From Roseobacter fucihabitans (lineage in GTDB: Bacteria; Pseudomonadota; Alphaproteobacteria; Rhodobacterales; Rhodobacteraceae): DNA of 64,000 nt. The notes under the pieces are model-generated. The model was not told the DNA's origin and searched no databases. It saw only the letters and a list, made by a program, of their open reading frames with translations. Positions 23,608 to 62,015 of this stretch are shown piece by piece. The position numbers and the translations under genes were made by a program. The DNA lies in NCBI RefSeq assembly GCF_014337925.2, contig NZ_CP143423.1, positions 2,944,501 to 3,008,500 of the forward strand, in the 5' to 3' direction. Positions within the stretch are counted from its first letter, which is position 1. Each line of letters begins with the position of its first letter.

Positions 23608-23982
23608 AAACATCGAGGCTCCGCTACCGGGTTGAGGCTGGAAAGCCAAGACTGCCGCTATTCCAAACAACCTTTGGAATAGGCCATCGCATGGGAGGTC
23701 CCAGAATAAATGAAGGGCGGATTCTGTTGAAAAACTCTTGCTTGATCGGGTGGCTATTCGCTGATTCAATTTTCCTTAGCAACGGGGGTGATTTCGATGC
23801 TGGGACCAAAGCAAGAAGCACAAGGCGCGCTGTTTTACGAGTTCTCGATTGACGATCATGTGCCCCAAGATCACCTGCTGCGGTCAATTGATAGGTTCGT
23901 TGATCTAAGCGACATCCGCCAATACCTAGCGGACTTTTATAGCCACACTGGCCGCCCGTCCATCGACCCAGAACTGCTGATC

Positions 23983-24019
23983 TATTACCCGGCAGTGCAT
24001 GTTTACATGCATGAGAGGG
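23983..24019 (-). repeat. 37-bp palindromic insertion, copy 1
   Basis: Read on the minus strand it is CCCTCTCAT, then a hairpin (GCATGT, 2 bases, ACATGC), then ACTGCCGGG and TAATA. It falls exactly between codons 62 and 63 of the transposase and shifts the frame. The flanking blocks match copy 2 at 24653-24692 base for base except in the last few positions, while the hairpin arms differ in sequence but still pair. No target duplication is evident. Confidence 0.7.
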
Positions 24020-24652
24020 CGCATGCTGCTCGTGGGCTATTGTTCTGGCATCCGCTCGGAGCGCCGTCTTTGTGAAGAGGTGCATTTGAAACTGGCGTAT
24101 CGTTGGTTTTGCCGCCTCGATCTATCTGATCCGGTGCCGAACCACTCGACGTTCTCCAAGAACCGGCATGGGCGTTTCCGGGAGAGTGCATTGTTGCGAC
24201 ACCTGTTCGAGAAGACCGTAGCTCGGTGCATCGCGGATGGCTTGGTGAGTGGCCAGCGCCTTGCGGCAGACGCCAGTTTGATCGAGGCAGATGCGAACAA
24301 ACAAAACGCGACGCCGAAGGAAGATTGGGACCATAATGCCATCGATCCAAACGATGCGCCGCGTGCCGTGAAGGAGTATCTTGATGTCTTGGATAACGCA
24401 GCTTTTGGCGCAGCATCTGAGGTTGAACCCAAGTTCACGTCCCATTCTGATCCTGCAAGCCAATGGACGGCAGCCCGTAAAGGCCCTGCGTTCTTCAGTT
24501 ATTCCACCAATTACCTGATCGACACGGATCATGCCGTGATCGTCGATGTGGAGGCCAGACGATCAATCCGGCAAGCAGAAGTCGGGTCTGTGCGCTCAAT
24601 GTTGGATCGGGTCAAAGACACGTTCGATCTGCATCCCGAATGGATTATCGCC

Positions 24653-24692
24653 CCCTCTCATTGATTGCTTTGCAATCAACTGCCGGGCAATG
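24653..24692 (+). repeat. 40-bp palindromic insertion, copy 2
   Basis: Read on the plus strand it is CCCTCTCAT, then TGATTGC, a 3-base loop, GCAATCA, then ACTGCCGGG and CAATG. It has the same conserved blocks as copy 1 in the opposite orientation, with different but self-complementary hairpin arms. It sits between the codons for IIA and DTAYGSG of the transposase and introduces a stop codon. Confidence 0.7.
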
Positions 24693-25441
24693 GACACAGC
24701 TTACGGTTCCGGCCCGATGCTCGGGTGGTTGGTTGATCGCAAGATCGAACCGCACATTCCGGTTATGGATAAAGCGAGCCGCACGGATGGCACATGGTCT
24801 TGCGCGGACTTTGAATGGGATGCGGAGAATAACCAATACATCTGCCCGGAAGGCGAGCCGCTCAAGCAATTCCGGCGCAACTATTCTGACCCAAATCGTG
24901 GGCCAACCGGCAAAGGCGTCGCCAAGTATAAGGCCCTTAAACAGACGTGTCAGGCCTGTCTGTCAGAAATGCAATGCTGCCCGAATGCTGATGCGCGAAA
25001 AATTACCCGCGAAGAACATGAAGACGCCCGTCAGGTCGCCCGCGACATTGCCAAGACCAAGCAATACGCAATCTCAATGCGGCTGCGCAAGAAAGTTGAG
25101 ATGCTCTTCGCGCATCTCAAACGCATCCTCGGGCTGGGACGTCCCCGATTACGTGGCCCATGCGGCGCAAATGACGAATTCCTGCTCGCCGCCACCGCCC
25201 AAAACCTCCGCAAACTCGCCAAGATCTTTCCTGCACCGCAGCAAATGCAAAAAGCCTGATAAGAAAGGCGCTCGCGCTCCATTTAGATCACCACTTCCTG
25301 CGCTCGCAACACGTTGTTTTTCCACAGAATCAGCCAATGCAGACTTTCGCTGCGAGCGCAGCGAGATCACACTTTGTTCCGCACGGTGTGGGTTCGTCGA
25401 CGGGGAAGCGAACGGTAACATCTGCAATTCATCAGTTCCGA

Positions 25442-52700: not shown

Positions 52701-52782
52701 CCTGCGCCAGAGGCCATCGTTCCGATGGACCAAACGCCAATCATGCAATAATTTTCAAACTGGACCACCCAAGTGGGACTGC

Positions 52783-53031
52783 TCAGGACGACCTGCCCTT
52801 CATCAGACGCATCAGATCGCTAATCGCCAGTTTCGGCGGGACCGACACGAACATGTGGACGTGGTAACTTGAGAGCACGCCGCGGATGATCTCGACACCA
52901 CTCTGCGCACAGACCTGGCGGCAGATATCACAGACCCGCAGTTTGATGTCGCCCTGCAACACTTTATAGCGATACTTGGTCGACCAAACGAGGTGGTAGC
53001 GGTGATAATAGACGCAGTGCTTCCCCGTGGA
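52783..53031 (-). pseudogene. IS200/IS605-family TnpA (Y1 transposase), truncated
   Basis: The minus strand reads CVYYHRYHLVWSTKYRYKVL, QGDIKLRVCDICRQVCAQSG and VEIIRGVLSSYHVHMFVSVP, then LMRLMKGRSS and a stop at 52783. The HUH motif appears as HVH, but the C-terminal helix with the catalytic Tyr is absent, so the protein is dead. No start codon precedes it before the in-frame TGA at 53032. Its terminal sequence lies immediately to the right. Confidence 0.8.
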
Positions 53032-58627: not shown

Positions 58628-60102
58628 TAAACATAGGTTTAGAGTCAAACTGAGCAGGGCAGACAAGTGGCGCGTTGTCCTGACCGACACCTCACCTTTC
58701 GAGGTGCCAATAATCATCAGCAACGATGGGTTTTACAAAAATTTATATGGGCTGGCTGGCAAATCGGCACACTTTAAAAAGCTAATCAAAACCCTTGTGC
58801 TAGAAGATGATGGCAAGAGTTTCTCCGTCCCCTTGAGATACAGAATTGTCAAAGATTCACGCAGTGTAAGAACATTGAGTTTGCTTCACCCTAACGGGCA
58901 AGTGGTGTTGGCTTCATTCTACGAAAAATATGAAGAACTGATCTGCGAATACGCTTCCCGCAGCCCGTTCTCAATTCGTGCGCCGGAAAAAATCGGTGGA
59001 TCGTTTTTTGTTCCATCGCCACTGCAGGGCAAGAACCAATACAAGAACGCTACCGTTGACACCACGGAACTCGACAAACTGGTTAGAAATCCGGCTAGCT
59101 ACTTTGCCTATTCTGGATTCAGCCGTCTGCACCAGTTCTTTGCCTCGGACGACCACATTCGGCTGGAAAAGAAGTTTCGGTACCAGCTATCGCTAGATAT
59201 CAGCAAATGCTTTGACAGCATTTACACCCACTCCATGGCTTGGGCAACAAAGAGCAAGGAGGAAGCTAAGGAGAGCATCTTTCCGCTGAATTTTGGGAAC
59301 CAATTTGACAAGGTGATGCAAAGACTAAACCACAACGAAACGAGTGGGATTTGCATCGGTCCAGAGGCTAGTCGCATTTTTGCGGAAATCATATTGGCGA
59401 AGGTAGACCAAAATGCCCGCCGAAGTCTTGAGAGGCGCGTTCCGGCCATTCGTTACGGCGTGGAGTATGAGTGCATGCGCTATGTCGATAATTATTATGT
59501 GTTTTCTAACAGCGCCGAAGTTGCTGAGCAGGTCGAGCACGAACTATCACTTGCACTGCGCGAATACAATTTGCACCTGAACGTCGGAAAGCGAGAGTTT
59601 GAAAAACGCCCGTTCTATTCAAAAAAATCTTTGGTGATCGACGAGATCAACAATTCTCTACGATCCCATTGGGCACAGTTGTTCGAGACAATACATCTGC
59701 CTTCAAGTGGCAAGAAAACGGTAATACCAAAGTTCATCTATCGCTATCGCGCTCTATTCGGAAAACTCACTAGAGAGGTTAAGGCCGCGTGTTATGCATC
59801 AGAATTGGGCTACGATGCGGTTGCAAACTACGTCATTGGCGCAATCCGACGGAAAGTCATAGATATTGCTGATGACTACGCTGAACTGAGCGCAATTGAG
59901 GAAAGCCCGGTAGTCGAACGGGATTATCGTCAGATGTTCTTTTTCCTGCTGGATGTTGGTTTCTACTTTTTTACGTTGCACCCCACCGTGGCGTCCTCAC
60001 TCGGTTTGTCGCACGCTCTCGTACGCGCGGCCCAACATATGGTCTTGCCACGTTTTAGTTCCGGTCTCTTTCGAGCAATGTTTGCTATGAAGGAGATAGA
60101 GA

Positions 60103-60378
60103 ATGGCACCGAGATACACAGACGAGTTTCGTCTTGATGCAGTACGCATCGCAACGACCAGTGGGCTGACACGACCGCAAGCGGCAGCGGATTTAGGAGT
60201 TGGGCTTTCGACGTTGAACAAGTGGGTTCAAAAGCATCAGCATGACAACCTGATGTCGGGTCCTCACGAGGATGTCGAGAAAGAGAACGAACGCCTTCGC
60301 AAGGAAGTTCGGTTGCTTCGCGAGGAGAGGGAAGTGTTAAAAAAAGCGGCAATCTTCTTTGCAGGCCAAAGTCGGTGA
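60103..60378 (+). CDS. IS3-family transposase OrfA
   Basis: The 91-residue protein has the HTH (RIATTSGLTRPQAAADLGVG then LSTLNKWVQKHQHD) and a leucine-zipper-like coiled coil (KENERLRKEVRLLREEREVL). AAGGAG lies upstream of the ATG. A run of seven A at 60339-60345 in register A-AAA-AAA is a classic -1 frameshift site. OrfB is open in the -1 frame from that run, so an OrfAB fusion can be made. Confidence 0.9.
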   Translation: MAPRYTDEFRLDAVRIATTSGLTRPQAAADLGVGLSTLNKWVQKHQHDNLMSGPHEDVEKENERLRKEVRLLREEREVLKKAAIFFAGQSR

Positions 60379-61232
60379 GGTTCGCCTTTATCGACGCCTG
60401 GAAAGAAGAATGGCCTGTCGAATTTCTTTGCCGCGTCATGCAGGTTACGTCGCGAGGATTTCGCGCGTGGCGAAGCCGCCCGATGAGCCAGCGACAGCGC
60501 GACGATATGGTGATCCTGGCGCATATCCGCGAACAGCACCGCTTAAGCCTGCAAAGCTATGGCGGGCCTCGCATGACCGAAGAACTGCAAGAACTGGGTC
60601 TGCAAGTTGGGCACCGGCGCGTGGGCCGCTTAATGCGGGAGAATAGCATCAAAATCATCAGGACCCAGAAATACAAGGTTACGACCGACAGCAATCATGC
60701 GTTTAACATCGCCCCTAACTTGCTGGGCCAGGACTTCTTTGCAGATGGTCCAAACCAAAAGTGGGCCGATGACATTTCCTACATCTGGACCAGTGAGGGC
60801 TGGTTGTATCTGGCAGTGATCCTTGATTTGTATTCCCGTCGTGTCATCGGTTGGGCGGTTAGCAATCGTATGAAGCGGGATCTGGCGATCCGAGCATTGG
60901 ATATGGCTGTGGCACTGCGGCAACCGCCGAAGGGCTGCATGCATCATACGGATCGCGGGTCGCAATATTGTTCAGGCGACTATCAGAAACGGCTGTCTAA
61001 ACACGGCTTCCAAGTTTCGATGAGCGGTAAGGGAAACTGCTACGACAATTCCATGGTTGAAACGTTCTTCAAATCACTCAAGGCAGAGCTGATTTGGCGC
61101 AACCGCTGGGAAACCAGGCGTAAAGCCGAAGGGGCGATTTTCCAGTATATCAATGGGTTCTACAATCCACGACGGCGGCACTCGTCATTAGGTGGCAAAA
61201 GCCCCTTGGCCTTCGAACGAAAGGCTGCCTAA
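60375..61232 (+). CDS. IS3-family transposase OrfB (integrase domain)
   Basis: The 285-residue frame contains the DDE catalytic triad: QKWADDISYIWTSEGWLYLA, GCMHHTDRGSQYCSGDYQKR and NCYDNSMVETFFKSLKAELI. HRRVGRLMRENSIKIIRTQK is the HTH-21 part. It is complete and reads from a GTG overlapping the orfA stop, or as OrfAB by frameshift. It ends 38 bp before the right terminal repeat. The element therefore looks mobile. Confidence 0.9.
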   Translation: MRFAFIDAWKEEWPVEFLCRVMQVTSRGFRAWRSRPMSQRQRDDMVILAHIREQHRLSLQSYGGPRMTEELQELGLQVGHRRVGRLMRENSIKIIRTQKYKVTTDSNHAFNIAPNLLGQDFFADGPNQKWADDISYIWTSEGWLYLAVILDLYSRRVIGWAVSNRMKRDLAIRALDMAVALRQPPKGCMHHTDRGSQYCSGDYQKRLSKHGFQVSMSGKGNCYDNSMVETFFKSLKAELIWRNRWETRRKAEGAIFQYINGFYNPRRRHSSLGGKSPLAFERKAA

Positions 61233-62015
61233 ATGAGTTGAGAGACCGGAACGCAACCGCGACAAGACCAATCTGCAGAAGCATGACCCTGAGGGGCATG
61301 ATATTCTTAAAGAGGCCTCGCTTCGTTGGGCATCACAATTGGCCAGAGCTCCCAGCTTTGAAGGTCTGTTTTCAAAGGGCTCAGTTGTGCCGATTGAAAT
61401 CCTGAACATTTTAGTAAGTCTGCAGCAATTTGGCGGTGACGGCCAGCTGGAGCATGAGTTGATTGCATTAACCAAACTGGACGAGCAGAGCCGTGGATAT
61501 TTTGAACTTGTCGTAAAGCTATTTATCTACGGAAACCGTTCCGACTTCGATCAGCACAGATCCGAAATTTGGAAAACCATTTGTGAACGGGTCAAATCAG
61601 AGAAACATCTGGCAAGAGATTCAGAATCCGTACATTTATTCCTTGATGCGCTTGCTTGCCCGCACATTGAAAATGCCAAGCGAGCTGAACTGCTCCGAGA
61701 TGTTTGGAAATCGATTTCTCCCAGTATGGGTGCAATCAGCAAGTGTGAAGCCGAGGCAACAGTCGCTGAGATACAACAACAATACTGGTTTGTTCGTTGG
61801 GATGGTGTCGATCTCTTGAACATGATTGAAAAGAAAGAGTTGAGCAGCGTCTATGCTTAAGGTATTGATAGCTGAGGTTATCAGCCACGTTTTACCGCGA
61901 CTTGTTACGGTACAGACTTGTTGATCAAACTGCGTGGATCGTACAATCCGCGAAAGAGGTTGGCTTGAGCAGCAATGCACACACTTACGTTGGCTGGTAC
62001 CCTTGTTCTTATCAA

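Follow-up and report, generated by a model that had tools for sequence, protein, structure and literature searches.

Two short hairpins that interrupt an IS1182-family transposase gene of Roseobacter fucihabitans are the tip of a family of hairpins from marine Roseobacter-group bacteria, and almost all copies examined lie within insertion sequences (ISs). At the DNA level the insertion of these hairpins is precise, takes place in either orientation and in any codon phase, and leaves no duplication. The two hairpins, designated A and B, are probably copies of a tiny non-autonomous mobile element that is moved in trans, persists almost only in ISs and hitchhikes with them, and the family looks like a parasite of genomic parasites. 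The near-total IS location is the most surprising point and goes beyond the initial annotation, which had proposed a tiny mobile palindrome. That proposal is supported by many dispersed copies, covarying arms and precise empty sites.

Both hairpins are found in the window, the whole stretch of 64,000 nt that was analysed. The IS1182 copy that contains them extends over about 23720..25330 on the + strand (the 1611 nt common to the copies compared) and ends in the imperfect terminal repeats GATTCTGT(T/G)GAAAAAC. Its transposase gene (23797..25256, + strand) was delimited by tblastn with the 461-aa transposase of an uninterrupted copy from Yoonia vestfoldensis (L309). The three coding pieces on the + strand, 23797-23982, 24020-24652 and 24693-25256, correspond to aa 1-62, 63-273 and 274-461 of the Yoonia protein, with an identity of 88% over aa 1-461 and of 87-89% per piece. 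The domains DUF772 and DDE_Tnp_1_6 were found in a relative of this transposase carried by the Dinoroseobacter shibae plasmid pDSHI04 (L305). Only two junctions were detected in comparison with the Yoonia protein, with net gains of 37 and 40 nt, and no stops, bearing out the initial reading of two insertions and no other lesion.

Element A (37 nt, 23983..24019) is on the - strand, antisense to the transposase, and element B (40 nt, 24653..24692) is on the + strand, in the sense orientation, confirming the positions and opposite strands of the initial annotation; they match the covariance model of the family at 47.0 and 62.4 bits, respectively. When read in one orientation both begin with CCCTCTCAT and end with ACTGCCGGG followed by a 5-nt tail, the shared blocks that had been described before. 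The layout is CCCTCTCAT-GCATGT-AA-ACATGC-ACTGCCGGG-TAATA for A and CCCTCTCAT-TGATTGC-TTT-GCAATCA-ACTGCCGGG-CAATG for B. The -1 base, in the orientation of the element, is G for A (24020..24020, - strand) and C for B (24652..24652, + strand). Folding of A and B as single-stranded DNA was better than that of most shuffles (z -1.9 to -2.5), and no match at the Rfam gathering score was found within the window. At the DNA level the Yoonia copy, the D. shibae plasmid copy and an IS1182 remnant in the host genome (L108) lack exactly segment A and have contiguous flanks, and gap-free empty sites for segment B are present in the Yoonia copy and a Tritonibacter copy (L307); the segments are thus not carried by the uninterrupted IS1182 relatives compared. 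Elsewhere in the window, positions 60040-61270 hold an IS3 copy with an intact 328-aa transposase frame, and at about 52780-53016, overlapping or near an IS66 TnpB-like ORF, is the remnant of a Y1_Tnp with a TGA inside it.

The hairpins are not confined to the window locus. A pattern search of the host and its relatives, as the initial annotation had proposed, uncovered dispersed copies: the exact pattern CCCTCTCATN{4,30}ACTGCCGGG gave 35 matches in the host genome and its reversed control gave 0, indicating that the host matches are not due to chance. With the covariance model, at least 112 related hairpins were detected in the host (E <=0.01; 150 of 2354 candidates scored), and at E <=0.001 with stricter filters 49 of 149 sampled genomes of the host's family had matches. 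A slightly shorter exact pattern matched 25 of 146 genomes (host included), all within the host's family, and 0 of 57 genomes outside that family in the same class.

From 148 model matches, ten second copies (same IS, same genome) were removed to leave 138 elements, and exclusion of those with flanks below 30 nt or near-identical flanks, together with the poor matches e96 and e97, gave 125 distinct sites, of which the host contributes 50 and other genomes 75. The elements at these 125 sites are 34-43 nt long, mostly 37-41 nt, with every remainder modulo 3 occurring among the lengths. Their order is CCCTCTC, two variable bases, a stem-loop, TGCCGGG and the 5-nt tail. The tail is mostly CARYG (CAATG, n=42; CAGTG, n=39), with a T..A tail in a minority; a G at -1 accompanies T..A tails in 8 of 11 cases, versus 2 of 114 for other tails. 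Covariation in the stem was analysed with a covariance-model alignment of 40 chosen sequences (35 of 57 unique sequences plus 5 variants). In this alignment 97.2% of stem cells were paired compared to 80.3% in shuffles, the number of double-change cells was 45 compared to 11.4 (reached in 0 of 500 shuffles), and the covariation score was 0.403 compared to 0.084. Slid controls of the stem alignment reduced the paired cells to 55% or less. Two of the five stem measures, double-change pairs (44/500) and further pair types (271/500), were not above shuffles. The stem is kept while its sequence varies because the changes are compensatory pairs. The model (R1) misses some members of the family, such as 41-nt inserts at two loci (L300 and L064) and the fifth hairpin of an IS3 described below.

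The location of the elements was determined by comparison with element-free reference ORFs. A match of at least 55 bits to such an ORF was found within 120 nt of 126 of the 138 elements. These 126 are covered by 29 reference ORFs, 20 of which were scanned, and 18 of the 20 have a transposase-type Pfam domain (one below the curated cut-off); through these 18, 113 of the 138 elements lie beside matches to transposases carrying a Pfam domain. At least seven kinds of IS recognised by Pfam are hit: IS3, IS5, IS1182, IS21 (IstA, IstB), IS110, IS66 and IS6. Flanks read by eye add what we take to be IS630-like, IS1595-like and tyrosine recombinase sequences. No clear host gene or ordinary intergenic DNA was seen among the flanks read, which cover part of the 112 host matches, leave out host match 2783423 and include one locus unsettled by an N run (L049). 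An IS200-type tnpA (L338 1616-2007; host 436615-437006) is split by a low-scoring model match (E 0.034), by eye a member of the family; the host genome has three equal-scoring Y1_Tnp matches.

Precision of insertion was assessed at both the protein and the DNA level. There are 41 distinct sites flanked by protein matches on either side, and at 29 of them the net gain relative to the best reference equals the exact element length; the remaining 12, for which the best reference gave an unequal net gain, count against the mobile-element reading. Gap-free empty relatives were found at the DNA level for 82 of 130 sites (at least 70% identity, mean 80%). The right flank of the target favours G80/A64/T50 percent (125 sites) and reads N|GA(T/C), or in extended form N|G A T/C G. 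The initial annotation had noted the absence of a target duplication, and this stands for the family, as no duplication was seen and the tail resembles the flanks no more than in shuffles (125 sites); to be added is that the base just before the insertion is often replaced. The mismatch to empty relatives is 0.48 at -1, while the remaining 23 flanking positions have 0.05-0.28; compared with the highest of these neighbours, at many sites likewise a third codon position, P is about 1e-4. Filled sites have C or T at -1 in 71 of 82 cases, and their empty relatives in 46 of 82. These data indicate that the element often seems to bring its own -1 base, replacing one target base.

Orientation and codon phase could be determined at 27 usable sites, 17 of them sense and 10 antisense. 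The counts for phases 0/1/2, which include rows resting on shadow ORFs or weak references (e5; for e101 the references disagree), are 9/2/6 for sense and 7/1/2 for antisense sites. When run over 15 ORFs from transposase regions, the target profile gives expected proportions of 0.44/0.14/0.42 for sense and 0.57/0.27/0.16 for antisense. Because the observed phases are close to this prediction, the reading frame seems to play no part. The earlier statement that both insertions fall between codons thus holds for A and B but not as a rule for the family. At three sites shared by related ISs, different stems are found in different genomes (L007/L068/L073, L017/L033 and L023/L062), which suggests repeated independent insertion. 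In the L007/L300 region an IS3-like copy has several hairpins, and by eye part of the transposase next to one of them seems to be missing, possibly due to deletion between elements.

Interrupted ISs are present in multiple copies. The window IS1182 and four further full copies have an identical sequence of 1611 nt with varying flanks, and two partial copies were also detected (40 scored out of 82 candidates); none of the host matches was an insert-free full copy. That the broken ISs are multicopy nonetheless counts against a mobile hairpin. An IS3 with four model-called hairpins (L281) likewise has five full copies with the same terminal repeats and different flanks, a clear target duplication being found in at most one. 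A fifth hairpin in this IS3 (L281 1980-2020), not called at the model threshold used but read by eye, splits the rve domain. Frame jumps found between the aligned pieces are all at hairpins, and at the end of the element about 57 reference residues have no match. A different IS3, with an intact 328-aa frame, has 19 copies in the host, but its terminal repeats are similar to rather than the same as those of the L281 IS3, which makes it a possible source of help in trans.

The five identical IS1182 copies and the five full IS3 copies, each set with the same hairpins, support hitchhiking. By the proposed mechanism a putative trans-acting enzyme would recognise the folded hairpin, most simply and probably as single-stranded DNA, cut at its constant ends and join it into the target strand. 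IS transposase genes would be almost the only place where copies persist, since breakage of these genes is tolerated, and IS amplification and horizontal transfer would then multiply and spread the copies. The broken ISs would move with transposase supplied in trans, or would have moved before their helper was lost. Y1 transposases were sought as mobilisers, and 4 of the 10 element-bearing genomes examined do not have them. That no mobilising enzyme was found, and that neither an autonomous long version nor a parent element was noticed at any locus inspected, counts against the proposal. If tolerance were the only factor, other neutral DNA should have copies as well, and the fact that none was recognised there also counts against a mobile hairpin.

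The distribution beyond the host bears on such spread. Rhodobacterales plasmids widely carry a type of 41 nt, found at 159 places in 74 records, and a 38-nt type was found in one plasmid record. None of the 41-nt-type matches lay under an annotated gene in the 60 plasmid records listed, one of which is without annotation, the PLSDB annotation tables leaving out pseudogenes. In the gammaproteobacterium Vreelandella neptunia HM116 a single contig has two stem-paired copies (L143, L207), which suggests transfer of hairpin-bearing ISs. The exact matches listed for the genome contig collection are mostly chance, 27 of the 134 listed there and in viral contigs having a stem of at least 4 pairs; 12 stretches were matched in viral contigs, four of them with a paired stem (L321, L322, L325, L329), and annotated phages gave no match to a single 41-nt query. 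Unrelated sites share an identical stem in 18 of 1420 pairs within a genome compared to 61 of 6281 pairs between genomes, and the within-genome value of 0.013 is not significant against a shuffled maximum of 0.024. As stem sharing is not clearly commoner within a genome, recent copying inside a genome is not proven.

The multicopy state of the broken ISs could also be accounted for if the hairpins, like introns or IESs, were removed from DNA or RNA so that the transposases still work, a reading that we judge unlikely. It would suit the window IS1182, with no lesion but its two hairpins in every full copy, and the L281 IS3, with five hairpins and no frame jump found away from them. The dN/dS values of 0.10-0.20 for hairpin-sharing IS pairs (about 0.1 at a dS of about 1.7 for the IS3 pair L298/L299) also point that way, but non-sharing pairs give similar values, independent insertion would explain the low ratio, and L298 and L299 both show stops, so dN/dS does not decide. 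The mixture of sense and antisense sites argues against one sequence-specific RNA splice rule, and since all hairpin positions are filled in the full copies (10/10 for IS1182, 20/20 model-called positions for IS3) there is no sign of DNA excision. In addition, among nine other multicopy loci an in-frame stop is present in L285 and in L288, a one-base frame jump in L283, and stops against weak references in L117. These lesions and the unmatched IS3 end favour dead copies moved in trans over removal of the hairpins, the window IS1182 itself being clean. Programmed translational bypassing, in which ribosomes hop over an insert, is known from T4 gene 60 and the byps of yeast mitochondria. Many sites, A and B included, lie exactly between codons, as if to allow for it. 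This impression came from joins read by eye, however, and protein references gave all three phases, upon which bypassing was dropped as a candidate. The phases occur in proportions near the target-preference prediction (27 sites), sense and antisense copies present different RNA, and element lengths are not restricted to any remainder modulo 3, making bypassing extremely improbable. Both translational bypassing and sequence-specific RNA splicing thus fit badly.

Other readings concern the agent rather than the fate of the hairpins. Mobilisation as REP-type repeats by a RAYT or an IS200/IS605-type Y1 transposase is suggested by the similar size, the single hairpin and the 10 Y1_Tnp matches of the host. 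Of 10 element-bearing genomes 6 have Y1_Tnp (PF01797), compared to none of the 5 that are element-free by exact pattern only (Fisher P 0.044), and its occurrence in element-bearing genomes only is a hint for such an enzyme. We nevertheless think this explanation unlikely. A GTAG or CGTC tag is lacking, the copies are in transposase genes, and four genomes (G004, G016, G031, G085) have elements and no Y1_Tnp match. Of the Y1 genes inspected, one in G003 has model matches at distances of about 320 nt and 1.1 kb, which adjoin other IS sequence, and another (L338) is interrupted by the weak match beside it. An IS-directed process, perhaps a host defence, might instead write the hairpins into transposase genes, making them a product rather than a selfish element. 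The near-exclusive location in several IS families among the copies examined is in keeping with this, as is the presence in IS sequence of another hairpin family, equal in size but unrelated in sequence; but no enzyme was found, the broken ISs still multiply, which would make for a poor defence, and the conserved ends and covariation suit a replicating element. We regard it as quite improbable. A further reading has a low but real chance of being correct: a dedicated process that inserts small structured cassettes of several families specifically into transposase genes, either as host taming of ISs or as a class of parasites that complete their whole life cycle in ISs. Insertion would replace one target base without duplication, chemistry that matches no family compared.

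The second, unrelated family, CGCCATTG...CAATGGCG, was recognised from frame breaks of 38 and 37 nt at loci L090 and L297, respectively. Its hairpin, GATGCGCCATTGG-loop-CAATGGCG, is present at about 17-81 of L090, at about 2560-2644 of L297 and in L331, L332, L333 and L335; 6 copies were found in 5 of 89 genomes, with 0 control matches. In L331 it sits, by eye, in an apparent IS3 OrfB. Another frame-breaking insert at about 587-654 of L090, with a net gain of 44 nt and an GATCCGGGGGATC hairpin, is possibly a third family.

At 34-43 nt, about the size of REPs, the hairpins would to our knowledge be among the smallest mobile elements. Their apparent restriction to at least seven kinds of IS was not expected and is relevant to the taming or persistence of ISs, and the hairpins hide interrupted transposase genes from annotation. 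The mobilising enzyme, if found, could provide a new hairpin-directed reaction for DNA insertion. No description of such elements was found in the open-licence literature, as judged from titles and the beginnings of abstracts of the results shown.

Several known systems resemble the hairpins in part. Rickettsia palindromic elements (RPEs) are larger palindromic units that lie in frame in coding sequences of host genes, whereas the hairpins are 34-43 nt long, break frames and lie in IS genes. IS-derived miniature elements (MITEs and PATEs) are likewise non-autonomous, dispersed and precisely inserted. Typical MITEs are longer, and for them a target-site duplication is expected, a feature missing here. 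The byp elements of Magnusiomyces mitochondria are short hairpin inserts of similar size that are found inside genes and are apparently mobile; the hairpins differ in occupying all codon phases and both orientations, and host genes seem to be spared. A spliced intron has one orientation, whereas 10 of 27 hairpins are antisense. Integron attC sites are hairpins that a recombinase could use as folded single-stranded DNA, but no attC box motifs were seen by eye in the consensus of 125 sites. The hairpins work like small palindromic repeats moved in trans, without the REP tag or an extragenic location. REPs are palindromes of 20-40 nt with many copies, thought to be moved in trans, the hairpin being recognised as single-stranded DNA by TnpA-REP (PMC3733652, PMC8266576). 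REPs and REPtrons have a GTAG or CGTC tag at the foot of the stem, whereas the hairpins have no tag, and have constant arms at both ends (CCCTCTC and TGCCGGG, 125 sites) plus a tail, unlike REPs. In a REPtron the RAYT gene is bounded by repeats, an arrangement not seen near the Y1 genes read, and REPs are mostly intergenic, whereas 113 of 138 hairpins adjoin transposase matches. Membership among REPs therefore fails on tag and location, and the kinship with REPs or IS200-mobilised palindromes that the initial annotation had raised is unproven, yet Y1_Tnp co-occurs with the elements.
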